Source: Chryseobacterium tructae
GTDB taxonomy: Bacteria; Bacteroidota; Bacteroidia; Flavobacteriales; Weeksellaceae
NCBI RefSeq assembly: GCF_030409875.1
Contig: NZ_JAUFQR010000001.1
Span: 2,604,001-2,668,000, forward strand
Reading direction: 5' to 3'
DNA: 64,000 nt
In this document: in pieces, positions 913 to 31,560 of the stretch
Numbering within the stretch: position 1 is the first letter of the stretch
How the letters are laid out: each line of letters starts with the position of its first letter
Notes under the pieces: model-generated
What the model was told of the DNA's origin: nothing
The model's database searches: none
Seen by the model: the letters and a program-made list of their open reading frames with translations, nothing else
Program-made: the position numbers and the translations under genes

Positions 913-2151
913 TTACTGAATTATGCAGGCAGCAACCGTTGAATTAGAAGTTTCATCTACCAAAATTGCAGAGCCTGTTCTTTTGTTATTGATAAAACTA
1001 TCATAGACCAAAGGTTGTGCCGTTCGTAGGGTTACTTTTACCACTTCATTCAGTTTGATGTCTCCTTCTGCTTTTTCCTGGGTAAGGGTATTCACATCAA
1101 TCTTATAATCAATCTCTTTCACAACGGCTCTTATCAGTCTGCTGTTCTGCTGTAAGAGGTATTTATTACCAGGCTGCAATGATTTTTGATCGAGCCAGCA
1201 TAACAGAACTTCAAGGTCTTTTTCAACTACAGGGAGCTGTTCTTCGGTAGCAAAAATATCTCCTCTGCTGATATCTACATCATCGTTTACATGAATCACA
1301 ACAGGCTGTCCTTCAAAAGCTTCTTCTTTTTCAATTCCGTTGATCTCGATTTTAGCAATTTCAGTTGTAATTCCTGCTGGAAGGATTTGGATTGGGTCTC
1401 CTTTCTGAAACTTTCCGCTTAAAATCTGTCCTGCATATCCTCTGTAATCATGCAACTCTTCAGTCTGAGGACGAATGACATATTGAACCTGAAAACGGCT
1501 GCCGGTATTTAACTCTTCATTCAGGGTTACATTTTCCAGATATTCTAAAAGCGAAGTCCCCTGGTACCAATCTGTCTGAGCTGATCCTGAAACAATATTG
1601 TCTCCTTTTAATGCTGAAATCGGGAAATAGCTTACCTCATTTAATCCAAGACTTTCTGCAATTTTAGCATAGTCTGCTTTAATGGTTTCAAATACTTCCT
1701 GTGAATAATCCACCATGTCCATTTTATTAATGGCTACAGCTACTTTTTTCAATTTTAATAACGATGCAATGATAGAATGTCTTCTTGTTTGCTCAATTAC
1801 TCCCTGACGGGCATCAATCAGGATTACCATCAAATCGGAGTTGGAAGCTCCGGTAATCATGTTTCTTGTATATTGTACGTGACCGGGTGCATCGGCAATG
1901 ATAAATTTTCTTTTTGTGGTAGAAAAATACCTGTATGCAACATCGATGGTGATCCCCTGCTCCCTTTCAGCACGTAAGCCGTCCGTAAGAAGAGCAAGGT
2001 CTACCCCGTCATCATTTTTATTTTTAGAATGTTTTTCCAGTACTTCTAACTGATCCTGTAAAATACTTTTACTATCATATAGCAGTCTTCCGATCAAGGT
2101 ACTTTTACCGTCATCTACGCTTCCTGCTGTTATAAATCTTAATATATCCAT
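913..2151 (-). CDS. cysN: Sulfate adenylyltransferase subunit 1 (GTPase)
   Basis: CysN is the GTP-hydrolysing subunit that drives ATP-sulfurylase (CysD) to convert sulfate to APS. The protein starts MDILRFITAG and shows the P-loop GSVDDGKST (~residues 10-18), the G3 motif DAPGHVQYTRNM and the G4 motif NKMDMV, then EF-Tu-like beta-barrel domains. At 412 residues it has no C-terminal APS kinase domain, unlike CysNC fusions. I use the Met at 2149-2151. The open frame runs upstream to 2223, but that extension (MTTFLLMEF...) is encoded by an AT-rich repeat and is not family-like. It lies between cysD and cysE. Confidence 0.95.
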   Translation of the reverse strand: MDILRFITAGSVDDGKSTLIGRLLYDSKSILQDQLEVLEKHSKNKNDDGVDLALLTDGLRAEREQGITIDVAYRYFSTTKRKFIIADAPGHVQYTRNMITGASNSDLMVILIDARQGVIEQTRRHSIIASLLKLKKVAVAINKMDMVDYSQEVFETIKADYAKIAESLGLNEVSYFPISALKGDNIVSGSAQTDWYQGTSLLEYLENVTLNEELNTGSRFQVQYVIRPQTEELHDYRGYAGQILSGKFQKGDPIQILPAGITTEIAKIEINGIEKEEAFEGQPVVIHVNDDVDISRGDIFATEEQLPVVEKDLEVLLCWLDQKSLQPGNKYLLQQNSRLIRAVVKEIDYKIDVNTLTQEKAEGDIKLNEVVKVTLRTAQPLVYDSFINNKRTGSAILVDETSNSTVAACIIQ

Positions 2152-2163
2152 CTGTTTTTGTTT

Positions 2164-2255
2164 ATGAGTAATGAATAATAGGTAATGAGTAATGGTGAAT
2201 TCCATAAGTAAAAAAGTTGTCATCTAATCACTTATTACTCATTGCTAATTACTTA
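2164..2255. repeat. AT-rich short-repeat spacer between cysD and cysN
   Basis: The 105-bp spacer carries imperfect direct copies of GAGTAATGA-like words (2164-2195) and inverted copies of the same theme (ATTACTCATT, 2231-2255). The two arms could pair as a stem around the middle of the spacer. Function unknown. It may be a dispersed intergenic repeat or an intra-operon processing structure. Confidence 0.5.
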
Positions 2256-2256
2256 T

Positions 2257-3165
2257 CTAAAAATAGCCTCCTTTTTTACGATCTTCCATTGCCGCTTCTG
2301 TCACACGGTCATCAATTCTGGTTTCACCACGTTCAGAGATTCTTGTGGCCACAATTTCTTCAATCACAGCATCAATTGTAGTTGCTTTAGATTCTACTGC
2401 TGCAGTGCAGGTCATATCTCCTACGGTGCGGTATCTTATCTTTTTTGTAGTGATGATATCGCTGGTTTCAAGAGAGGCATGGTGAGAATTGGCGATCCAT
2501 TGTCCGTTGAGGTCTACTACTTCTCTGTCATGCGAGAAGTAAATGGAAGGAAGGTCAATTTTTTCTCTTCGGATATAGTTCCAGATGTCGAGTTCCGTCC
2601 AGTTGCTGATCGGGAATACCCTTACATTTTCTCCTTTATGGATTTTTCCGTTGAAGATGCTCCATAATTCCGGACGTTGAAGTTTTGGATCCCATTGTCC
2701 GAATTCATCACGAACAGAGAAGATCCTTTCTTTGGCGCGGGCTTTTTCTTCATCTCTGCGGGCGCCTCCGATACAGGCATCAAATTCAAATTCTTCGATA
2801 GTATCCAGTAAAGTAAAGGTCTGCAGCCAGTTTCTGCTTGGGAATTTTCCCTTAGGCTCTGTTAATCCTTTCTTTTGGATGGTATCTTCTACTTTACGAA
2901 CTACCAAGTCAACTTCCAGCTGATTAACAAGTTCATCTCTAAAGTTCAAGACCTCAGGAAAGTTGTGCCCTGTATCTACATGAACAAACTTGAAAGGTAT
3001 TTTTCCGTAACGGAATGCTTTGGATGCTAAATGAGCCAGTACTATACTGTCTTTTCCACCGCTGAATAAAAGTGCCGGGCGTTCAAACTGTCCTGCGACT
3101 TCCCTTAAAATGTAAATAGATTCAGCTTCCAACTGATCCAGGTAATCTAAATGATATGTTGACAT
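2257..3165 (-). CDS. cysD: Sulfate adenylyltransferase subunit 2
   Basis: The catalytic ATP-sulfurylase subunit makes APS from sulfate and ATP with CysN. It is 302 residues, the usual length. The PP-loop FSGGKDSIVLAHLA is at ~residues 34-47. The family blocks HVDTGHNFPEVLNFRDE, GGARRDEEKARAKERIFS and RVFPISNWTELDIWNYI follow, and the protein ends with the typical MEDRKKGGYF. Its start lies 12 bp after the cysH stop, so it is cotranscribed with cysH upstream and cysN downstream. Confidence 0.96.
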   Translation of the reverse strand: MSTYHLDYLDQLEAESIYILREVAGQFERPALLFSGGKDSIVLAHLASKAFRYGKIPFKFVHVDTGHNFPEVLNFRDELVNQLEVDLVVRKVEDTIQKKGLTEPKGKFPSRNWLQTFTLLDTIEEFEFDACIGGARRDEEKARAKERIFSVRDEFGQWDPKLQRPELWSIFNGKIHKGENVRVFPISNWTELDIWNYIRREKIDLPSIYFSHDREVVDLNGQWIANSHHASLETSDIITTKKIRYRTVGDMTCTAAVESKATTIDAVIEEIVATRISERGETRIDDRVTEAAMEDRKKGGYF

Positions 3166-3177
3166 GTTTTTCTTTTT

Positions 3178-3897
3178 TTATTGATGAATATGGAGACCGC
3201 ATTCCTTTTTGTTGGCATCTTCCCACCACCAGCGGCCTGCTCTGAAATCTTCTCCTTCCCGAATAGCTCTTGTACAAGGCTCACATCCGATGCTTACAAA
3301 TCCTTTTTTATGAAGATAATTGTACGGAAGCTGATTGGTTTTTACGTAATCTGTCACCTGTTCAGTGCTCCAGTGCAGAAGCGGATGAAATTTAATGATC
3401 TGATTATCTTCGTCCCATTCCAATGACGGCATGTTCTGTCTGTTTGGGGAATGTTCAGCTCTTAAACCGGTAATCCAGACTTTATATCCTTTCAAAGCAG
3501 ATTTCAGTGGATGTACTTTACGAATGGTACAGCATGCTTTTCTCTGCTCTACGGACTGATAAAAAGAATTGGGGCCGTTTTCTGAGACAAATTTTTTCAG
3601 TTCTTCAGTATCCGGGTAGTACGCTTTGATCTCTTTTTTGAAGAAGGCTTTTGTAGAAGCCCAGGTGTCATAAGTCTGTTCAAAAAGTCTCCCGGTGTCC
3701 AATGTGAAAATATCAACATTTAGATTTTTTATTAAATGAGTGATCACCTGATCTTCGTAACTGAAGCTGGTTGAAAATACTACTCTACCAGGAAATTTTT
3801 GTGTAACCAATTGTAAAATATCCTGTTGAGAAGATTGCCCGGAGGTTTCTTCCCTAAGTTTTTCAAACTCGCTTTTCAAACTATTTTCCATTTCCAT
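3178..3897 (-). CDS. cysH: Assimilatory adenylylsulfate (APS) reductase, CysH family
   Basis: The enzyme reduces activated sulfate to sulfite. Of 239 residues, the N-terminal part holds the PAPS-reductase fold (VVFSTSFSYEDQVITHLI, FTLDTGRLFEQTYDTW). Four cysteines occur as CCTIRK and GCEPCT, the pattern that binds a [4Fe-4S] cluster in APS-using reductases and is absent from E. coli-type PAPS reductases. The C-terminus KECGLHIHQ carries the catalytic Cys. With no APS kinase in the operon, direct use of APS is the better reading. The start is taken at MEMENS (3895-3897). MENS at 3891 is also possible, and the longer frame to 3945 looks untranslated. Confidence 0.92.
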   Translation of the reverse strand: MEMENSLKSEFEKLREETSGQSSQQDILQLVTQKFPGRVVFSTSFSYEDQVITHLIKNLNVDIFTLDTGRLFEQTYDTWASTKAFFKKEIKAYYPDTEELKKFVSENGPNSFYQSVEQRKACCTIRKVHPLKSALKGYKVWITGLRAEHSPNRQNMPSLEWDEDNQIIKFHPLLHWSTEQVTDYVKTNQLPYNYLHKKGFVSIGCEPCTRAIREGEDFRAGRWWWEDANKKECGLHIHQ

Positions 3898-5438: not shown

Positions 5439-6419
5439 ATGAAACATATAAAACAATCCGTAATGATGTTTGCGGCAACAGTATTTTTGATATCTGGTTT
5501 TAAAGCTAATGAAAGAACCAAGAAAGGGAACCCTGAAAAACAGAATCTTTCTGTGACAAAGAAACATTGGCCCAATGGGGCGCAATTGGTCATTTCAGTA
5601 TCCATGCAGTTTGAAACGGGAGGCCAGCCTGAAGGAGCTGAAAGCCCGTTCAGTAATACTCCACTTCCTAAAGGCCAGCCGGATCTTCCTGCAGAAAGCT
5701 GGTATCGTTATGGTGGAAATGAAGGGATGTACAGAATGCTGGATCTATGGAAAAAATATGATATCAAAGTAACTTCTCATGTAGTAGGAACAGCTGCTGA
5801 GAAATATCCGGAAATTGCAAAAGCTATTGTAAAAGGCGGACATGAGATTGCTGCTCACGGGATTTCCTGGGATAATCAGTGGAATAAAAGCTATGATGAA
5901 GAATTACAATTTATAAAACAAGGCGTAGAAGCTGTTGAAAAGCTTACAGGGCAGAAAGCTGTAGGTTACAACTGCAACTGGCTGAGAAGAAGTCCGAATA
6001 CCCTGAAAGTCTTACAGGAACTAGGATTCCTGTATCATATTGATGACCTTAGCCATGATGAGCCTTTCATCACTAAGGTAAAAGGGAAAAATTTTGTAGT
6101 CATTCCGTATACCCTTCGTAATAATGATATTGTAAATATAGAAGGAAAACACTGGAGTCCCGATCAGTTTCTTGCCCAATTGAAGTTTGAATTTGACAGA
6201 CTTTACGATGAAGGAGCTACCAAAAGAAGAATGATGAGTATCAGTTTCCATGACCGGATTGGCGGAACTCCTGCAATGGTACATGCAATGGAAGAATTTA
6301 TTAAATATACCAAAGAGAAACAGGGCGTTGTCTTTATGAGAAAAGATGATATTGCTAAAATGGTGATGAATGATCCAAATACTCCGGTTGATAACAGTGA
6401 GGCAAAGTTTAATAACTAA
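5439..6419 (+). CDS. Secreted polysaccharide deacetylase (PuuE/allantoinase-like)
   Basis: A 326-residue NodB-homology protein with an N-terminal export signal (MKHIKQSVMMFAATVFLISGF). Family features are the ISVSMQFETGG opening, YRMLDLWKKYDIKVTSHVVG, the HEIAAHGISWDNQW block (metal/active-site region), GYNCNWLRRSPNTLKVLQELGF, and SISFHDRIGGTPAMVHAMEEF near the end. It belongs to the branch with PuuE-type allantoinases and fungal-type deacetylases, and the substrate is uncertain. Start taken at the signal-peptide Met; the frame extends upstream to 5355 without a signal. It is followed by a DoxX gene after 44 bp. Confidence 0.87.
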   Translation: MKHIKQSVMMFAATVFLISGFKANERTKKGNPEKQNLSVTKKHWPNGAQLVISVSMQFETGGQPEGAESPFSNTPLPKGQPDLPAESWYRYGGNEGMYRMLDLWKKYDIKVTSHVVGTAAEKYPEIAKAIVKGGHEIAAHGISWDNQWNKSYDEELQFIKQGVEAVEKLTGQKAVGYNCNWLRRSPNTLKVLQELGFLYHIDDLSHDEPFITKVKGKNFVVIPYTLRNNDIVNIEGKHWSPDQFLAQLKFEFDRLYDEGATKRRMMSISFHDRIGGTPAMVHAMEEFIKYTKEKQGVVFMRKDDIAKMVMNDPNTPVDNSEAKFNN

Positions 6420-6463
6420 TAATTTGTTTTTCAGATTAAAATAATAACTCAAAACATATTTAT

Positions 6464-6850
6464 ATGAATAAAAAAACATCCTATTTCTTCCTTCGCTTAT
6501 CGATGGGAATTAATTTTTTCGGGCATGGATTGGTTCGGTTAACCAAACTTCAGGATTTTACTGAAGGAATGGTGAAAGGCTTTGAAAAAAGCTGGCTTCC
6601 TCTATTTTTTGTACAAATATTTGGTACAGCACTTCCCTTTTTGGAGTTTATCATTGGGCTTATGCTTATCATTGGTTTCAAAACGAGAATTGCAGTTGTG
6701 GCAGGCGCTTCACTGATTATTTTACTGTTGTTTGGCAGCAGTACGATTGAGAATTGGGAGGCTATGGGAATTCAGATGATCTATGCAGGACTGTTGTATA
6801 TCCTGATCTATAGAATAGATGATAATTATCTTTCTTTAGATAAAAAATAG
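6464..6850 (+). CDS. DoxX-family membrane protein
   Basis: A 128-residue protein with four hydrophobic segments: YFFLRLSMGINFFGHG, FFVQIFGTALPFLEFIIGLMLIIG, IAVVAGASLIILLLFG and IQMIYAGLLYILIYR. The N-terminal RLSMGINFFGHGLVRL and the following amphipathic loop match the DoxX/quinol-oxidase-subunit-like family in the inner membrane. The biochemical role of most members is unknown. It lies 44 bp after the deacetylase and probably shares its transcript. Confidence 0.85.
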   Translation: MNKKTSYFFLRLSMGINFFGHGLVRLTKLQDFTEGMVKGFEKSWLPLFFVQIFGTALPFLEFIIGLMLIIGFKTRIAVVAGASLIILLLFGSSTIENWEAMGIQMIYAGLLYILIYRIDDNYLSLDKK

Positions 6851-6854
6851 GGAG

Positions 6855-6913
6855 AGAGCTGAGAAAGAGAAGCCCGGTCTATTAAACTTAGCCATCTTAT
6901 CTTTCTCAGTTCT
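6855..6913. terminator. Inverted repeat between convergent genes, possible bidirectional terminator
   Basis: Arms 6855-6867 and 6901-6913 pair over 13 bp with one G-U, around a ~33-nt loop. They lie between the DoxX stop (6850) and the convergent acetyltransferase stop (6918). The large loop and weak T-tract make termination uncertain. Confidence 0.4.
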
Positions 6914-6917
6914 TAGT

Positions 6918-7415
6918 CTACTGATCTTTTGAAAATAAGAAATAAGCTAATTCTTTACCTTCTCTTTTCAGATTTTCCAATTGTTTAAATCCACTTTTTA
7001 GAAGGACTTTCTGTGAACCAATATTATCAAGGTCTGTTAATGCAACAATATCTTTCTGATGGTTTAATGATGAACAATAATCAACAAGGGCTTTACAAAC
7101 TTCAGTTCCAAGGCCTTTTCCCCAATAGCTTTCCCCTAATGTATACCCTATTTCTATTTGTTCAGGGTTATCAAGGAAGGTTCTGGCCAGACACATTCCA
7201 ACAAAATCGTGATTCTGAGCATTGAAAATCCCCCACCTGCTGAAAGACCCGTCTTTATAATCTGAAAGGGCTTTTTCAAACATTTCTTTGTATTCATCAG
7301 GAGTTTTATAGGGCAGATAGCGAGTTACATTTTCGCTTTCAAAGAGATTCAGAAATAAAATAAATTCCTGAGGAGTAAATTCACGAATGATGATCGTATC
7401 GTTTTTATAGTTCAT
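6918..7415 (-). CDS. GNAT N-acetyltransferase (RimJ/RimL-like)
   Basis: A 165-residue cytosolic GNAT protein. IIIREFTPQEFILFLNLFES at the N-terminus, GYTLGESYWGKGLGTEVCKALVDYC (~residues 90-115, the acetyl-CoA loop QxxGxG/A-type region) and ALTDLDNIGSQKVLLKSGFKQLE are diagnostic. Members of this branch acetylate protein N-termini or small molecules, and the substrate here is unknown. It stands alone and is convergent with the DoxX gene. Confidence 0.88.
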   Translation of the reverse strand: MNYKNDTIIIREFTPQEFILFLNLFESENVTRYLPYKTPDEYKEMFEKALSDYKDGSFSRWGIFNAQNHDFVGMCLARTFLDNPEQIEIGYTLGESYWGKGLGTEVCKALVDYCSSLNHQKDIVALTDLDNIGSQKVLLKSGFKQLENLKREGKELAYFLFSKDQ

Positions 7416-7517
7416 AGGAATAATTGAGTTTGAAAAACAATGAATAAAATTACATAAATAAATCTGTAATTATTGTTATTTATAATCCTTTTCTAAGATT
7501 ATATAAAAAGTAAGTTT

Positions 7518-7943
7518 TTAAATGTTAACTTTATTTTTAAGTGCTAATTCTTGTAACTTATAAATTGTAGTTTCTTCATTAATGGATCCTTCTTTGATAT
7601 CATGTAATAGTTCTTCCAATGTTACTTTATAGAGATTAGCTTCATTGTGCGTTAAAAAAGATATGATCTCATTCAAAGCATGATCATAATCTTTCAATTC
7701 ATAGTAAGATAAATATTTTATTTGAGAAGCATATTCATTTTTATGATCTTTTTGTAATAATCTGTTAGCTGTAGCAATTGCTAAGTAATATTCTTCAATA
7801 TTATAATAAGAATTTGACAAAAATAGCAATCTGAAAATTTCAGATTTTAAAGGTAATCCTTCCAAATTTTTTAAGATCTTAATGGCTAATTCATATTGTT
7901 TATTGTCCATCAAATCTTTAGCTTTATGTAATTCTGTAATCAT
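7518..7943 (-). CDS. Hypothetical protein with TPR-like helices
   Basis: A 141-residue protein with no signal or membrane segment. Residues ~1-110 read as three helix-pair repeats in TPR style: KAKDLMDNKQYELAIKILKNL, LFLSNSYYNIEEYYLAIATANRLLQ and YLSYYELKDYDHALNEIISFL, with the Y..A/G..A spacing of that family. It is probably a protein-interaction module. No neighbour suggests a partner. The coding potential is credible because of the repeat periodicity. Confidence 0.7.
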   Translation of the reverse strand: MITELHKAKDLMDNKQYELAIKILKNLEGLPLKSEIFRLLFLSNSYYNIEEYYLAIATANRLLQKDHKNEYASQIKYLSYYELKDYDHALNEIISFLTHNEANLYKVTLEELLHDIKEGSINEETTIYKLQELALKNKVNI

Positions 7944-17629: not shown

Positions 17630-19799
17630 ATGAAGAATATAAAGAAAATAACGGCTATTGCCTTATACTTTTTGTGCCTGTCGCCATTGGCCGCTCAAAA
17701 AACACAATGGACTCCTGACGGCAATGCTTACTACTCATTTACTAAGAATGGTGTCGGGATTATTGATGTCCTGAATCCTGGAAAAGATCAGGCTTTTTTA
17801 AGTAATAATGAATTGATTCCTGCCGGAAGCTCTACTGCTTTAGAAGTACAAAGCTTTCAGGTTTCACCGGATGAGAAAAGTTTATTGCTTTTTACCAATA
17901 CCCAGAAAGTATGGCGTGACAATACACGAGGAGATTATTGGATCTTTGATAAGAACACTAAAAAGCTTACTCAGCTCGGGAAAGGCCTTCCCACTGCATC
18001 ATTAATGTTTGCCAAATTCTCTCCTGATGGCAAAAAAGTGGCTTATGTATCGAAGCATAATATGTATATTGAAGATCTTTCCAGCCATGAACTGACAAAG
18101 ATTACTTCCGATGGTACAGATGGGATGATTAATGGTACTTTCGACTGGGCATATGAAGAAGAATTCGGGACTCAGGATGGCTTCAGATGGTCTCCTGACG
18201 GAAGTAAATTGCTTACTGGAAGCTGGATGCGCGAGGTACAAAAAATTTCCTGATGATCAATAATACAGACAGTCTGTATTCATTTACGATTCCTGTAGAA
18301 TATCCGAAAGTAGGTGAAAATCCTTCGGGATGCAGTATATGGTTCTATGATCTTGCATCAAAATCTTCTAAAAAAGCAGATATAGCGGGTGATGCAATAC
18401 AACATTATATTCCCAGAATGGAATGGGTATTGGATTCTAAATCTATTATTTTGCAGCAATTGAACAGGAAACAGAATCAAAGTAAAATTATTGTTGCGGA
18501 TGCTCAGTCTGGAAGCAGCAAAACCATTTATACAGAAACAGATAATGCATGGATTGATATCAAATCCCGTTGGAATGAGAATGACCCAAGTGGTTGGGAC
18601 TGGATCAATAATGGGAAAGAGTTTTTGTGGCTGTCCGAAAAAGACGGCTGGAGGCATATTTATAAAATAGATATGAATGGTAATGAAACATTGATTACAA
18701 AAGATGCTTTTGATGTTATAAAGCCCGAGTTTTTTGATGTTCCCAATAAGCAAATCTACTTTTTAGCCTCGCCTAATAATGCAACTCAGAAGTATCTGTA
18801 TAAAGTAAGTATGCAGGGCGGAAAGGCTCAAAGAATAACTCCTGATACCTATTCCGGATCCAATCAATACATGATCTCTCCCAACGGGAAAATTGCCATG
18901 TTTAATAACAGCAGTGTAAGTTCGCGTTCAGCAGGTGCTGTGGTATCATTGCCTGAACATAAAGAGCTTGTAGCTGCTAAGAGTAGTTCAAAAACTGATC
19001 CGGCAAGATCTAAAGCTGAGTTTTTCCAGATAGCAACACAGGATGGAGCAACCTTAGATGGATGGGTCGTAAAACCTAAAAATTTTGATCCTAACAAAAA
19101 ATATCCGATTGTTTTCATGGTGTATGGTGAACCTGGTTCACAGACGGTAACAGATAATTTCTATACAGGCAGAAACGGTTTATATATTGGCGATATGGCT
19201 CAGGATGGTTATCTGTACGTTTCCCTTGAAAACCGTGGAACACCAGCTCCTAAAGGACGTGAATGGAGAAAATCTATCTACCGTAAAATAGGACAACTTA
19301 ACATTCGTGATCAGGCTATGGGAGCGAAGGCTCTGTTTGCAAAATGGCCGTATGTGGATACCTCCAGAGTGGCTGTATGGGGCTGGAGCGGTGGTGGTTC
19401 TTCCACATTAAATCTTTAGGACAATACCCCGATATTTACCAGACCGGAATTGCCATTGCTCCGGTGGCTAACCAATTATTCTATGATAACATCTATCAGG
19501 AACGTTATATGGGGCTTCCACAGGAAAACAGAGAAGATTTTGTAAATGGCTCTCCGTTGGCTTATGCTAAAAACCTGAAAGGAAATCTTTTATTGGTTCA
19601 CGGAACAGGTGATGATAATGTACATTACCAAAATACAGAAGTTTATATTAATGAACTGGTAAAATACAACAAACAGTTTCAGTTGATGTCTTATCCTAAC
19701 AGAACTCACTCTATCAGTGAAGGAGAAGGAACATCATTGCATTTAGCCACCATGTTTACCAAATATTTGAAAGAACATTGTCCTCCGGGAGGAAGATAA
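17630..19799 (+). CDS. Prolyl dipeptidyl peptidase IV (S9 family), two frame breaks as read
   Basis: A periplasmic serine peptidase that releases X-Pro dipeptides. It has a signal peptide (IAL YFLCLSPLAAQ), an N-terminal beta-propeller (SPDGKKVAYVSKHNMYIEDLS) and a C-terminal alpha/beta hydrolase domain with nucleophile VWGWSGGGSS, Asp in HGTGDDNVHYQN and His in NRTHSI. Restoring an A at 18206-18208 gives SKIAYWKLDARGTKNFLMINNTD. Restoring a T at 19415-19417 gives STLNLLGQYPD. The repaired length is 723 residues, typical of bacterial DPP IV. It is followed by a terminator. Confidence 0.92.
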
Positions 19800-20651: not shown

Positions 20652-21154
20652 TTACAATGGATGAATGGTCAAATAAAGTTCTTTATAATAAACAACAAGA
20701 TCATCCAGAGAAATCCCCGGTTTAAACCACTGGGATTAGGCAACACCCAAACTTGTACCCCGCAAAAGTCTTCTGGCTGTAAACCCCATTGAATTTCTTT
20801 CTTTTTAGAAAAGGCTTTATAGGCAGCCTTACCAAGAAAAGCCACATATTTAGGCTGAAATTCTGTTATTTTGGCTTTAAAAGACTCAAGAGCATCATCA
20901 AACTCTTCTTTTGAAAGTTCATCAGCCCGGGACGTTGCTCGTGCAACCGCTGTTGTTAAGCCGCATTTGAAGTCTAAAATAACAGTATCATTTACAGCAT
21001 CAATTTCATAAGGAGTAAATCCGGATTGATGGAGGACTTTCCAGAAACGATTGCTCCGCCCTGAAAAGTGATGGCCATCATTTGATGATTTTAGACCTGG
21101 ATTAATTCCACAAAAAATAACATCGAGATTAGAAGTAATGATATCTGTTAACAT
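20652..21154 (-). CDS. mug: G/U mismatch-specific uracil-DNA glycosylase (Mug family), C-terminus frameshifted as read
   Basis: Mug removes uracil or thymine mispaired with guanine. Motif A is VIFCGINPGLKSS and the second motif is LPNPSGLNR, both diagnostic. As read, the C-terminus becomes GFLWMILLFIIKNFI and stops at 20669. Adding one base to the C-run 20715-20718 restores RGISLDDLVVYYKEL and moves the stop to 20652, for 167 residues of normal Mug length. Confidence 0.9.
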
Positions 21155-23257: not shown

Positions 23258-23644
23258 TTATTGACTTCTTTTTCGTAAATGAACTTCAGGAATCATGAGA
23301 TTCAGAAAACAAAAAATAAGCAAAATATTAAATTCAATACCATTGGTGCCTCCTCCTACAACAAACCAGCCATTATCCCAGTGAACGTAATAGATTCCAA
23401 AAACAAAGATCAGGATATTGCAAATGGCAACAGGCCTGATATAATGATCAAACCAAAGTGCCGGAACTGAAAAAAGATGAATAAGTTTAATTCCCCAGGC
23501 CAAATAAAGACCTATGGGACTAAACCCTATTACATTCAGATAATGAAGCCCAAAATCATTGACATCACCACTGAAGATAGAAACTACACTATGCATCAGT
23601 AAAATGACTGATAGCGCAACGCGAAGGAAGAAATTCTTTTTCAT
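23258..23644 (-). CDS. DoxX-like small membrane protein
   Basis: A ~128-residue protein with four hydrophobic segments: FLRVALSVILLMHSVVSIF, IGLYLAWGIKLIHLFSVPALWF, AICNILIFVFGIYYV and FNILLIFCFLNLMI. The GGGTNGIEFNILLI block is typical of DoxX-like proteins of Bacteroidetes. Start taken at MKKNFFLR; an upstream MSTFG in frame is less typical. Function unknown. It lies downstream of the LytS/LytT pair's start on the same strand. Confidence 0.75.
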   Translation of the reverse strand: MKKNFFLRVALSVILLMHSVVSIFSGDVNDFGLHYLNVIGFSPIGLYLAWGIKLIHLFSVPALWFDHYIRPVAICNILIFVFGIYYVHWDNGWFVVGGGTNGIEFNILLIFCFLNLMIPEVHLRKRSQ

Positions 23645-23765
23645 GAAACCAAAAGTAGACATCAGAACTATAGAGTGTGTTCTGATGTCTATTAATAGCT
23701 CTTAAGTATATATAAAAACATCTTTATCATTCATGACAAAGATGTTAACTAATGAAATATAACTT

Positions 23766-25676
23766 CTATATCCCTCTAAAATAAGGAACTCGCTTTTCAA
23801 TAAAAGCGACAATACCTTCTTTATGATCTTCAGTTTTGATAAGTTCGTTAAATAAACATGCTTCCTGTTTCAAACCATCAGCAATGCATAGCTCCAATCC
23901 TTTGTCTAGTGATTGCTTCGCTTTTGTAATTGCAGAAGGGCCTCTGGATGCAATTGTATTGGCTAATTTTAAAGCCTCATTCATTAATTCCTCTTGGGGT
24001 ACAATCTGATTCACAAATCCAAATTCTTTACAAGTTTGTGCAGGGTAAAGTTCTCCAGAGAAAATCATTTCTTTTGCTTTATATAGGCCAATGGCTTTAG
24101 GTAAGCGGAGAGTACCTCCTAAACAGGGTACAATACCAAACATAGCTTCTGGTAATCCAAACTTTGCTTTTTCGCTGGCCAAAATTATATCACAAGATAA
24201 CGCCAATTCACACCCTCCTCCTATGGCAACTCCATTTACCGCTGCAATGACAGGAAAATGTAACATTCCTATTGCATTGATTGCTGCTTGTGCCGCTTCA
24301 CCGAAATCTTTTTTTTCCTCCGATGTCATTTCTTGCATTGCCTTGAGGTCTGCGCCTGAAACAAATGCTTTTTCTCCTACTCCTGTAATAATCAATACGC
24401 GAATTTCTTTATTTCTTTTGATTTGCTCGGCAAAGGACTTTAATTCATTTAAAACTTGTTTATTGATACTATTTAAAACTTGAGGACGATTTATGGTTAG
24501 AATACCAATATGCCCTTCTTGTCTGTATAATAAATTGGTAAAGTTCATGATCTGATTTTTTAGATTAAAAATATCCTGATCATCTTTGGTATTTACCTTG
24601 AATTGTGTAGCTGGATAATCCACCATAGAATGTTTGAGATCTAATAAAGACCACCACCATGATATGGAAGAAATTTCTTTCGGCGGGTTTATATACTGTT
24701 TACAATTCCTTGTGATTGTAAAGTCACGCCCTTTTTGGTCATTAGCTACTTTATATCGTTTATTGGTACTGCAAAAAATAAGATTTCCTGAGATAACATC
24801 TTCCAAACCTTTAAAATATAAAGTTACGGGTTCGTAGATGTATGGAAATTTCTGTTTTAAAGATTGATACAAAAGCAAAATCTGATTACGAAGATCTATG
24901 GCTTTAGATATAGCCTGCTCCTCATTAAGATCCGGATAGGTAATAAGGTAAATTTGAATAATGTTATTGTAATATCCGGTATTAGAAGCTTTCTCTTTCT
25001 CATAAGAATAGATATCATTATCGAGAAGTGCAGCAAAAGCAATAGATTTGGTTAAAACCTGTATAACAGGATTGTTAGATTCTAGAGTACTTAGTTGTAC
25101 ATTGTTTACACATTGTGCTAAAGCAAACGGGATATCCATTCCGCCGCTGGCTATTCTTAAGGCACAAAAAGTAGTAAGATCCGGATATTTATTTTGAATT
25201 TTATATGCATTTTCCCATTGTATCCCGGATGTAAAGGATCCAACAGCTTTCATCAGGTTATTGATTTGAGGGATTTCTGCCCAGGAACTTAATCTGGCTT
25301 TAAGATCTAAAAGAGCCTCTACAATGGGGTTTTCAGGCAGGAGCCCAAGGTGAGAAAAATTCTGATAGGAGGGTTCTTCGCAAATGTATTTTAAACCAGT
25401 AAAAGAAATGATAAATTCGGGAAGGCTTTTATGAAGAAGAATTTCTTCTCCTACATCATCTAAAAGGCATACCCAAGAGCAAAAATCTGTGATATCTCTC
25501 ACCTGAAAATTTTTGATATCAGGATAACTGAGTGCCGTAAAATAAGCGCCGGCATTGGCTGCCTGATATCCATTTTCTATGAGTTGGTATTTTTTTAACC
25601 AGCCTATTGATTCCTGTAAGGCGGTTTCTGGTTTTTTGATTTCCGACAATGGAAATTCATGAATGATTGTGTTCAT
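23766..25676 (-). CDS. Class I terpene synthase fused in frame to an enoyl-CoA hydratase
   Basis: This 636-residue open frame starts MNTIIHEFPLSE. Residues 1-~345 are a class I terpene synthase: the metal motif LLDDVGEE (D73-E77), the pyrophosphate-sensor Arg174 exactly 46 residues before the NSE triad NDIYSYEKE (N220, S224, E228), and the RY pair at 307-308. Residues 377-636 are a complete crotonase beginning MNFTNLLYRQEGHIGILTINRP, with both hydratase Glu (GGGCELAL and LPEAMFG) and the oxyanion motif SGADLKAM. The linker (346-376) is hydrophilic. A frame change in the six-T run 24555-24560 would make two ATGA-overlapping genes, so fusion is not certain. Probable cyclic terpene product, identity unknown. 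Confidence 0.87.
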   Translation of the reverse strand: MNTIIHEFPLSEIKKPETALQESIGWLKKYQLIENGYQAANAGAYFTALSYPDIKNFQVRDITDFCSWVCLLDDVGEEILLHKSLPEFIISFTGLKYICEEPSYQNFSHLGLLPENPIVEALLDLKARLSSWAEIPQINNLMKAVGSFTSGIQWENAYKIQNKYPDLTTFCALRIASGGMDIPFALAQCVNNVQLSTLESNNPVIQVLTKSIAFAALLDNDIYSYEKEKASNTGYYNNIIQIYLITYPDLNEEQAISKAIDLRNQILLLYQSLKQKFPYIYEPVTLYFKGLEDVISGNLIFCSTNKRYKVANDQKGRDFTITRNCKQYINPPKEISSISWWWSLLDLKHSMVDYPATQFKVNTKDDQDIFNLKNQIMNFTNLLYRQEGHIGILTINRPQVLNSINKQVLNELKSFAEQIKRNKEIRVLIITGVGEKAFVSGADLKAMQEMTSEEKKDFGEAAQAAINAIGMLHFPVIAAVNGVAIGGGCELALSCDIILASEKAKFGLPEAMFGIVPCLGGTLRLPKAIGLYKAKEMIFSGELYPAQTCKEFGFVNQIVPQEELMNEALKLANTIASRGPSAITKAKQSLDKGLELCIADGLKQEACLFNELIKTEDHKEGIVAFIEKRVPYFRGI

Positions 25677-25827
25677 AATATTTGAATGATTTAGGTGTTT
25701 TTTGTGGAGTATGCTGCCCAAAAATGAGAGCTAATGATTTTCCTGCTACAAATTCATAGAATTCATACCTACAGAAAGAGAGCCGGGAATGTGTTAATAA
25801 AATAGTATTAGGTCTATATATATCAGG

Positions 25828-26426: not shown

Positions 26427-26930
26427 TTAATTCTGACTTAAGGTTTTCTTTACAAATTCTTCAAGTTCCTTTTCATGGAGATTTTTAGCGATAATTGTTC
26501 CCTCACTATTAATGATTACATTAAAAGGAAGCTCATCAATTTCATAGGCTTTTGCCACAGGACTTTTCCAGAATTTTAAATCACTGATCTGTATCCAGTT
26601 AATGTTAAAACGGTCTATGGCTTTCTGCCAGCTGTCTTTATTTTTATCTAAAGAAACACCAATGATTTCAAACTTGTTCGCTTTCACCTGATCCGAATAA
26701 GTATCGTATAAAGTTTTCAGTTGAGGTTGTTCTCCTACACATGGAGCACACCAGGTAGCCCAAAAATCAATAAGAACCAGTTTCCCTTTTAGGCTTGAAA
26801 GCGAAAATGAGGTTCCATCTGCTCTAGACATGGTAATCTCCGGAGCCTTCTTCCCTACTTCAATTTTGTTTTGAGCCAATGAATATCCTGAAAACAGGAT
26901 TGAAAATATTATTATAAAACCGGTTTTCAT
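26427..26930 (-). CDS. TlpA-like thiol-disulfide oxidoreductase
   Basis: A 167-residue exported thioredoxin-fold protein. The signal peptide is KTGFIIIFSILFSGYSLAQ. The AhpC/TSA-type fold has active-site WATWCAPCVGEQPQL (CAPC) and the cis-Pro region IDELPFNVIIN. Expected role: reduction of disulfides or resupply of reductant in the periplasm. The start MKTGF lies 1 bp after the rhodanese stop; a Met 3 codons earlier is possible. It forms a two-gene unit with the rhodanese protein. Confidence 0.9.
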   Translation of the reverse strand: MKTGFIIIFSILFSGYSLAQNKIEVGKKAPEITMSRADGTSFSLSSLKGKLVLIDFWATWCAPCVGEQPQLKTLYDTYSDQVKANKFEIIGVSLDKNKDSWQKAIDRFNINWIQISDLKFWKSPVAKAYEIDELPFNVIINSEGTIIAKNLHEKELEEFVKKTLSQN

Positions 26931-26931
26931 A

Positions 26932-27360
26932 TTAATCATTTGTAGGATAATCTTTATCTAGCCAGTCCGTTTTGATATTTTTAGGAAGATTTAAAAGCTT
27001 TGCATTTTTGAATCCCAGTTCCATTAATAAGTTAAATGCAGGTCGAATGTTTGGACACTTTACAAAAGGACAACATCCACAGTAGATCACAATTTCTTTA
27101 TTTTTTGGAATGTCTTTAAGATAATTTCTTAATTTTTCCAGATTCTCAGGCTCATGAGTGGGACCTATATCTACAGACCCTTTTATAATCGCCTCTGGCC
27201 CTACGGAAATAATCAATATATCCTTAGTCTTGTGCTTTACTATTCTGGATGCCAATAATGCCGGATCCATCAGTTGGCTCTCTTTCCATGGATCTTGTGT
27301 TTGTTGTGCCTGGCTGAAAATGGAACAGACAAAACACATCATCATAAATAAATACTTCAT
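26932..27360 (-). CDS. Exported rhodanese-like protein
   Basis: A 142-residue protein with a signal peptide (MKYLFMMMCFVCSIFSQAQ) and a rhodanese domain. The active-site loop is EIVIYCGCCPFVKCPNIRPA, with several Cys where sulfur-transferases carry one, and ELGFKNAKLLNL follows. The Cys-rich loop (CGCCPFVKC) is unusual and could bind a metal or form disulfides handled by the TlpA neighbour. The start is taken at MKYLF; the frame begins 5 residues earlier. Confidence 0.85.
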   Translation of the reverse strand: MKYLFMMMCFVCSIFSQAQQTQDPWKESQLMDPALLASRIVKHKTKDILIISVGPEAIIKGSVDIGPTHEPENLEKLRNYLKDIPKNKEIVIYCGCCPFVKCPNIRPAFNLLMELGFKNAKLLNLPKNIKTDWLDKDYPTND

Positions 27361-29070: not shown

Positions 29071-30749
29071 ATGGAAGAAACATTCCAGCCTGATGCTATT
29101 ATTATTGGAACCGGTTTAGCTGGACTTACTGCTGCGATGGAAATCACGGATGTCGGGAAAAAAGTATTGCTTCTGGATCAGGAAACCGAACAAAATATCG
29201 GTGGACAGGCTTTCTGGTCATTTGGTGGACTTTTCCTCATTAACTCTCCCCAACAACGAAGAGTGGGGATTAAAGATTCTTATGAACTGGCTTTACAAGA
29301 TTGGAAAGGAACGGCAGGTTTCGACCGTGAAGAAGATTATTGGCCTCGTAAATGGGCAGAAGCGTATCTGAAATTTGCAGCCGGTGAAAAATATGAATAC
29401 ATTTCTAAACTTGGTATTAAACTAATGTTTATGGTAGGCTGGGCAGAACGTGGTGACGGATCGGCCACCGGCCACGGAAATTCTGTTCCCCGTTTTCATG
29501 TAAGTTGGGGAACAGGTACAGGCGTTATAAAACCTTTTGTGAAAAAAGCCTATCAAGCTAAAGAAAAAGGTCTCTTACAAATGAAATTCCGGCATAGAGT
29601 AACAGAATTGATCGTTAAAAACGGAAAGATAACAGGTCTGAAAGGTGATATTCTTGAAAATGATGCTCAGGAAAGAGGCGTTGCTACCAACAGAAATATA
29701 ATCTCACAATTTGAATATTCTGCTAGTCATATTATCATTGCCTCAGGAGGTATAGGAGCCAATCACGAATTGGTAAGGAAAAACTGGCCCGAAAGACTGG
29801 GAACTCCTCCGGAAAATATGGTTTGTGGAGTTCCTGCCTATGTAGATGGGAAGATGATTGGTATTGCTGAAAATGCAGGAGCCAATATCATCAACCGTGA
29901 TCGCATGTGGCATTATACAGAAGGTTTACAAAACTGGAATCCTATCTGGCCTAATCACGGAATTCGAATACTTCCCGGCCCTTCTTCCCTATGGTTGGAT
30001 GCCAAAGGAAACGCCTCCCTGCTCCATTTCTTCCAGGATTTGATACTCTGGGTACTCTGAAGTATATTCAGGATTCAGGATATTCTTATTCTTGGTTTAT
30101 TCTGACTCAAAAAATCATCAAAAAAGAATTTGCACTTTCTGGTTCTGAACAGAATCCGGATATTACCAATAAGGATTATATTCTTTTCCTGAAACGAATA
30201 TTTGGTAAAAAAGCTCCCGGTCCCGTTGAAGCTTTTAAAGAGCATGGTAAAGATTTTATTGTTTCTGACAACCTTAAAGATCTGGTAGAAAAAATGAATC
30301 AACTGACAGGCAATCACCTTCTGAATTATGAAAAAATAAAATCTCAGATCGAAGCCAGAGATCGAGAACTGGACAATCAATTTTCAAAAGATACCCAGGT
30401 TAATTATATCAGAAGTACCCGAAGCTATTTGGGGGATAAATTGGGGAGAGTGGCAACTCCACATAAGATTCTTTCTCCTGAAAATGGCCCTTTAATTGCA
30501 GTTAGGCTGAATATTTTAACCCGAAAGACATTGGGTGGAATAAAAACCAACCTTAACGGACAGGTTTTAAGAGAAGATGATAGCATTATTGAAGGACTTT
30601 ATGCTGCTGGTGAAGTGGCTGGCTTCGGTGGTGGCGGAATGCACGGATACCGCGCTTTAGAAGGAACATTTCTTGGTGGATGTATTTTCTCAGGAATGAA
30701 AGCCGGAAAGTATATTGCCGGATTAAAAAAGGATAATTCAAATCTATAA
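29071..30749 (+). CDS. FAD-binding dehydrogenase (KstD/fumarate reductase-like), frameshifted as read
   Basis: A repaired length of 559 residues. The N-terminal FAD motif is AIIIGTGLAGLTAAMEITDVGKKVLLLDQE. The middle has GHGNSVPRFHVSWGTGTGVIKPF and IIIASGGIGANHELVRKNWP. The C-terminus carries the second FAD contact, YAAGEVAGFGGGGMHGYRALEGTFLGGCIFSGMKAG. The family contains 3-ketosteroid-1-dehydrogenase-like and fumarate reductase-like flavoproteins; the substrate is unknown. One missing A in the run 30009-30011 breaks the frame, and repair gives LDAKGKRLPAPFLPGFDTLG. It lies 9 bp before an SDR gene. Confidence 0.88.
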
Positions 30750-30758
30750 AGCCACGGA

Positions 30759-31560
30759 ATGAGCAACTATTATAATAACAAAGTCGTTTGGATTACAGGA
30801 GCGTCATCAGGAATTGGTGAAGCTTTGGTAAAAGAACTGGCAGAGAATAGCAATGCAAAAGTGATTCTTTCCTCCAGAAACGAGGAACAGTTGTATGAAG
30901 TGGCCGAAAGTATTGGACTTACCGTTAATCAATATGCAGTAATTCCTTTGGATCTGAAGAACTATAAAGAAATGCCTACTATCGCAGCTCAAGCTGTAGC
31001 AGCCTTTGGGAAATTGATATTCTGATCAATAATGCAGGATTATCCCAACGTTCTCTGGCCATGGAAACAGATATAGAAGTGGATAAGCGTTTAATGGATG
31101 TCGATTTTATCGGGACAGTAGCTTTAACGAAAGCTGTAATTCCTTATATGATAAAAAATCAAGGCGGGCAGATTGCGGTAGTTTCAAGTCTTATGGGTGT
31201 ATTCGGAGCACCAATGCGGAGTGGCTATGCTGCGGCTAAACATGCTCTTCATGGTTTCTTTGATGCTTTACGGGCTGAATTGTATGCTCAACGTATTTCG
31301 GTAACGATAATTTGTCCGGGATTTATACAAACCAACATTTCCATTCATGCGGTAACGGGTGATGGCTCAACACAAGGAACGATGGATGATGCCACGAATA
31401 ACGGTATGCCGGTAGATGTTTCGCTAAAAAAATGCTGAATGCCATTGAAAAAAAGAAAAACCAAAAAGCCATCGGCGGCAAAGAAGTATTGGGGGTTTAT
31501 CTGAAGAGATTCTTCCCTGCCCTGTTGGCAAAAATCATCCGAAAAGCAAAGGTAGTCTGA
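30759..31560 (+). CDS. Short-chain dehydrogenase/reductase, two frame breaks as read
   Basis: An NAD(P)-dependent classical SDR of 267 residues after repair. The cofactor motif is VVWITGASSGIGEAL, the structural motif INNAGLSQRS is split by the first break, and the catalytic set is Ser in AVVSSLMG with YAAAKHALH (Tyr-x-x-x-Lys). Restoring an A at 31011-31013 gives FGKIDILINNAG. Restoring a T at 31419-31421 gives DVFAKKMLNAIEKKKNQ and moves the stop from 31438 to 31558-31560. It follows the FAD dehydrogenase, so both may act on the same substrate. Confidence 0.88.

Follow-up and report, generated by a model that had tools for sequence, protein, structure and literature searches.

A probable gene fusion of a class I terpene synthase and a crotonase in two close species of Chryseobacterium

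In Chryseobacterium tructae, a class I terpene synthase and a crotonase (enoyl-CoA hydratase) are joined in a single open reading frame. Judging from the sequences, the two genes have probably truly fused, fairly recently, and selection maintains the resulting two-enzyme protein. We propose that a gene for a short-chain enoyl-CoA hydratase, akin to the enzyme of valine breakdown, landed just behind a terpene synthase gene that was already there, that the stop codon of the terpene synthase was lost, and that formerly noncoding sequence became a linker. The product would be a single two-enzyme protein of about 72 kDa: its N-terminal half would ionize and cyclize an isoprenyl diphosphate (FPP or GGPP), and its C-terminal half, with a changed acyl pocket, would hydrate a short or branched 2-enoyl-CoA.

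The fused gene lies on the reverse strand of the stretch of DNA that we analyzed (the window, 64,000 nucleotides), at positions 23,766 to 25,676. It has an ATG start, 636 codons, and a stop, and there is an in-frame TTG at 25,721, upstream of the ATG. The terpene synthase half comprises residues 1-353 (24,618-25,676, reverse strand), as shown by a match to Pfam PF19086 and by alignment with a free terpene synthase from Chryseobacterium sp. CH25. A linker of 23 residues (354-376; 24,549-24,617, reverse strand) connects it to the crotonase half (residues 377-636 and the stop; 23,766-24,548, reverse strand), which matches PF00378. So one frame does hold both enzymes, as the initial annotation had it, with strong Pfam matches to each half. 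An orthologous fused frame is present in Chryseobacterium sp. c4a (1561-3471 of locus L003, which is 6001-7911 of locus L072). Its linker has the same length and differs from the window's at 18 of 69 nucleotides. Because both halves have strong family matches and the same frame is found in a second species, the frame is not due to chance.

At the junction there is a homopolymer on which the open frame depends: six T on the forward strand, or six A in the gene, at 24,556-24,561. If the run had one A fewer, then the terpene synthase frame would end after residue 376 and would overlap the start of the crotonase by ATGA. The initial annotation pointed this out, and the consequence is as it described, although it placed the run one base off, at 24,555-24,560. 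Its caution about the homopolymer was also sound. We compared the window's assembly (three contigs) to c4a for positions 18.6-31.6 kb of the window, and four other genes have single-base gaps (17,630-19,799, 20,669-21,154, 29,071-30,749, and 30,759-31,438). All four are open in c4a, where the peptidase gene is only partly covered as the c4a locus ends. According to Pfam matches of the c4a copies, two of the four are an FAD dehydrogenase and a short-chain dehydrogenase, which lie 3.4-5.8 kb upstream of the fused gene; the other two are presumably a serine peptidase and a uracil-DNA-glycosylase-like gene. It seems that the assembly of the window is prone to errors. Relative to c4a, these genes are missing five bases and have one extra base, which lies toward the 3' end of the gene for the short-chain dehydrogenase. 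As the gaps include a gain as well as losses, we do not argue from their sign.

Nevertheless, we consider it extremely improbable that two real genes overlapping by ATGA were joined by one extra base in the homopolymer. Removing one A does yield that overlap, and given the extra base in the short-chain dehydrogenase, this assembly could have gained one here too. But the independent genome of c4a has the same 636-residue frame at the same locus, with 88% identity and no gap inside the frame. Furthermore, the run at the c4a junction is longer (seven A versus six) because of a T-to-A substitution and not because of an indel, so an artefact would require the same gain in two assemblies. We therefore rejected a sequencing artefact. 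The comparison of orthologs that the initial annotation proposed also favors the fusion: c4a is fused in the same frame, and the more distant CH25 has the terpene synthase alone.

A different reading of the same run is that one mRNA gives more than one product, by slippage at the run of six or seven A or by an internal start at the crotonase's ATG, so that the fusion and separate enzymes would be made together. The run sits at the junction, a one-base shift gives a terpene synthase that ends in the ATGA overlap with the crotonase start, and the run is common to both species. On the other hand, a shared run of A may reflect plain shared descent, and efficient slippage usually needs a run of more than 6-7 A. 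We view this reading as quite improbable, and we prefer the single fused product.

How might the fusion have arisen? The fused gene is flanked by two landmarks, both on the reverse strand: a thioredoxin-like protein upstream (26,427-26,939) and a 134-residue protein without a Pfam match downstream (23,258-23,662). (The 134-residue protein has a weak match to a prenyltransferase model, at 18.2 bits versus a cutoff of 288.) Among ten neighboring proteins that we scanned, none was terpene-specific or CoA-specific. Close relatives of the terpene synthase are present in just 3 of 173 genomes of the genus, namely the window's genome, c4a, and CH25, and there is a decayed piece in a fourth (G021). 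In CH25 (locus L073), a free terpene synthase gene of 356 amino acids lies between the same neighbors. The upstream neighbors are present in 73 genomes of the genus, and we inspected 30 of those loci: 3 have the terpene synthase, 1 has the remnant, 22 have both neighbors with no terpene synthase match between them, and 4 have no downstream neighbor within reach. The remnant in G021 (locus L030, around 1430-1660) is what decay has left of this terpene synthase gene, and it occupies the same locus, between the same neighbors.

Evidence about the order of events comes from a stretch of 40 nucleotides 3' of the crotonase's stop (23,690-23,729, reverse strand). It matches the 3' flank of the free terpene synthase in CH25, starting 7 nucleotides past its stop codon (90% identity, E = 5.6e-11). 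Thus the crotonase sits between the terpene synthase and what was the terpene synthase's 3' flank. We infer that the terpene synthase gene was there first and that the crotonase gene came in behind it, and it is this flank, not any similarity of the linker, that leads us to do so.

As for the linker, its DNA bears some likeness to the 3' flank of the terpene synthase and some to the junction between mmsB and the hydratase gene of certain relatives. Given the many comparisons that we made, this is only suggestive of its origin. When we aligned the linkers locally to the 3' ends of mmsB from eight relatives and to the 3' flank of the free terpene synthase, 4 of 18 alignments had p < 0.03 by shuffling (0.007, 0.019, 0.022, and 0.028). 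In an alignment anchored at the ATG, we compared the linkers to the regions upstream of the hydratase in 32 relatives, with 202 other upstream regions as background. The window's linker beat all 202 for one of the 32 relatives (G118) and reached 0.02 for five more, while c4a's linker reached only 0.035. Neither linker is much like the corresponding DNA of the operons in the window's genome and c4a themselves (p = 0.10-0.56).

The N-terminal half is, by its sequence, a class I terpene synthase. Residues 64-264 match Terpene_syn_C_2 (PF19086) at 79.4 bits, as compared to a cutoff of 23.7, and the motifs are present at the expected spacing. The four signatures are where the initial annotation placed them (D73-D74...E77-E78, R174, N220/S224/E228, and R307-Y308, with the sensor arginine R174 lying 46 residues ahead of N220 of the NSE motif), and they are invariant in all three members of the family. 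What the enzyme makes is another matter. None of the seven NCBIfam models that match this half does so at its own cutoff. The best of them is selina-4(15),7(11)-diene synthase (NF041565), and since its score is 114.7 bits against a cutoff of 450, the half is not assigned to that family and we do not predict its product. The nearest solved chain is 4okm_A. With that synthase and this chain, the fused protein shares the family profile, the four signatures, and a tryptophan-rich C-terminal end. Unlike these and other bacterial class I terpene synthases, it carries a crotonase. There is also a weak match to models of encapsulin-cargo terpene cyclases (67.8 bits versus a cutoff of 1200).

In a tree of 30 terpene synthases (28 from the genus and 2 from outside), the proteins from the window, c4a, and CH25 form a branch of their own, with a length of 2.89. 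For this tree, we began with 34 further terpene synthase loci, of which 27 passed our filter for length and motifs and 7 were dropped. Such a long branch calls for caution, so we use only the separateness of the three-member family and not its place in the tree.

Class I terpene synthases are familiar from this genus. The available parts of the published accounts describe diterpene synthases for chryseodiene and wanjudiene (PMC7383580), polytrichastrene (PMC8518897), and chryseojoostene (PMC12535395). They share the genus and the class I mechanism with our protein, a likeness drawn from their descriptions alone. No fusion is mentioned in these parts, and in the available text of PMC12535395, as in that of another terpene synthase paper, the words "fusion" and "fused" occur zero times.

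The C-terminal half appears from its sequence to be a complete crotonase. Residues 387-634 match ECH_1 (PF00378) at 232.8 bits, far above the cutoff of 27. E490 and E510, which are 20 residues apart and which we take to be the catalytic glutamates, are kept in both fusions, as are A442 and G487, presumably the oxyanion positions. With the profile above its cutoff and both pairs of residues in place, this half has the marks of an enoyl-CoA hydratase of the crotonase superfamily, and the initial description of a complete crotonase of 260 residues with both hydratase glutamates is borne out. Among the 25 of 77 matches listed for named enoyl-CoA hydratase subfamilies of NCBIfam, none reaches its cutoff, and the best is PRK05809.1, at 280.2 versus 394. 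This says little, because the hydratase of the valine operon also misses that cutoff (305.3 versus 394).

The nearest relatives that we found of the fused crotonase are those same hydratases from the valine operons of Chryseobacterium (64-71% identity across 32 genomes). When we compared the fused protein to 320 genomes from the family, 33 had a match at E ≤ 1e-100. In CH25 the match is to the terpene synthase only, and the other 32 genomes each have a stand-alone hydratase. At all eight loci that we read at length, the stand-alone hydratase is in the operon, as a free enzyme of 260 amino acids adjoining 3-hydroxyisobutyrate dehydrogenase. We assign the operon to the valine pathway because, in c4a, methylmalonate-semialdehyde dehydrogenase, 3-hydroxyisobutyryl-CoA hydrolase, and 3-hydroxyisobutyrate dehydrogenase all score above their NCBIfam cutoffs. 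(The operon in c4a also includes an acyl-CoA dehydrogenase, for which no model is above its cutoff among the models listed.) In the valine pathway, a short-chain hydratase acts on methacrylyl-CoA. Both fused genomes have kept their valine-operon copy. In the operon of the window's genome (locus L074 of G000), two frames are shortened relative to c4a: the acyl-CoA dehydrogenase has 277 instead of 386 amino acids, and the hydroxyisobutyryl-CoA hydrolase has 251 instead of 368. Perhaps this is the same assembly problem.

The fused crotonases share the catalytic residues of the operon enzymes and are 68-69% identical to the operon copies of their own two genomes. However, in a tree of 34 hydratases, the fused pair group together (100/100) and apart from the 32 stand-alone rows, with branches of 0.49 and 0.22 on either side of a midpoint root that is drawn for display. 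Given the different locus and this placement outside the 32 rows, we do not classify the fused crotonase as an ortholog of the valine-operon enzyme. So its source would be an old paralog, a fast-evolving copy, or a donor that is not in our sample.

How far has the fused crotonase diverged? Of 167 columns that are nearly invariant among the stand-alone enzymes, 132 are kept in both fusions, and 35 differ in at least one of the two. Six positions within 511-523, directly after the second catalytic glutamate, are changed in both fusions. This pattern suggests that the core is intact and that the acyl pocket has changed.

Both halves are under purifying selection, and both are less constrained than the housekeeping copy in the operon. 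Between the window and c4a, dN/dS is 0.155 for the terpene synthase half (bootstrap range 0.10-0.23) and 0.175 for the crotonase half (0.11-0.28). For comparison, dN/dS is 0.068 for the valine-operon hydratase of the same two genomes, 0.069 for the thioredoxin-like neighbor, and 0.14 for the 134-residue neighbor. The 23-codon linker shows no clear constraint (0.37, range 0.08-1.84). The motifs that were kept and the low dN/dS in both halves argue for a bifunctional enzyme, as the initial annotation had suggested. The excess of the fused hydratase over the operon hydratase (0.175 versus 0.068) also fits a partial relaxation of constraint.

Perhaps, then, only the cyclase matters, and the fusion is nearly neutral, with the crotonase as a passenger or at most a noncatalytic tail that stabilizes or oligomerizes the protein. 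The fusion is known from two close species only, the 35 altered positions are among the nearly invariant ones, and dN/dS for the crotonase half exceeds that for the operon hydratase by a factor of about 2.6. On the other hand, that dN/dS is bounded at 0.28, and neither species has lost the catalytic glutamates or the oxyanion positions. We find a passenger unlikely, and we prefer the reading that both enzymes are under selection. A bolder version of that reading is that the crotonase, once freed from valine breakdown and with its acyl pocket remodeled, came to act in the same pathway as the cyclase, on an acyl-CoA that is branched or an isoprenoid. The protein would then be the first two-enzyme protein of the terpene synthase-crotonase kind, with a single oligomeric scaffold for making terpenes and for CoA chemistry. 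This strikes us as unlikely.

What would such a fusion be good for? To our knowledge, in natural fusions of terpene synthases, the partner of the cyclase is either another cyclase or the enzyme that provides its substrate. Joining a cyclase to an acyl-CoA hydratase would imply a different logic, with the crotonase as a scaffold or with a link between branched-chain acyl-CoA and isoprenoids. We know of no chemistry by which a crotonase could supply the substrate of a cyclase, so channeling between the two sites is not expected. Fixed-ratio co-expression, clustering of the cyclases on a hexamer, and an unknown acyl-CoA step could each account for the fusion, and we favor the first two; it is more likely that the two reactions are co-expressed and clustered than that they are consecutive. 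Because crotonases of this kind are usually hexamers, we propose that the crotonase could form a core from which the cyclase domains hang on flexible tethers. By analogy, this layout perhaps resembles that of the fungal fusicoccadiene synthase PaFS. According to the available part of its description, PaFS has an N-terminal class I cyclase, a flexible linker of 70 residues, and an oligomeric C-terminal core, with the cyclases splayed, and this core is a prenyltransferase that makes the cyclase's substrate (PMC8190136). Our protein instead has a crotonase as its second domain and a linker of 23 residues. As the fused protein has no prenyltransferase domain, it is not a member of the PaFS type. 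An AlphaFold prediction for the fused protein, made with three sequences, has a mean pLDDT of 32.5, which is too low to support any packing of the domains or any oligomeric state.

To judge from the collections that we searched, the domain architecture is new; both families are known. In a scan of 173 genomes of the genus for close relatives of the terpene synthase, frames of more than 425 codons were found only in the window and in c4a. In a broader survey for terpene synthases, 76 of the 173 genomes were positive, with no frame above 425 codons among the matches listed. Across the phylum, 5 of 395 genomes have this terpene synthase family, and the longest frame besides the window's has 408 codons. 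We also scanned GTDB contigs for two short peptide patterns, an approach that is limited to close relatives, and this returned c4a and CH25. Among 1,801 matching plasmid records, none covers 80% of the fused protein. Finally, we did not find such a fusion in the full-text literature, as searched by titles and the openings of abstracts in a collection that leaves out most subscription journals. The initial annotation knew of no described fusion of this kind, and these partial searches agree. The absence holds only for the genome and literature collections that we searched.

At this locus, relatives have no terpene synthase, a free one, a decayed one, or a fused one. These are the stages that surround a recent gene fusion in bacteria, so the step from two genes to one is open to direct study. 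As a side observation, the number of terpene synthase matches per genome is very uneven across the genus, from none to at least 17 among the matches listed (for example, G058, G063, and G110). The window's own genome has further terpene synthase frames: one of 329 amino acids on contig 3, and one of 348 amino acids next to a partial one of 188 amino acids on contig 1 (loci L082 and L088).
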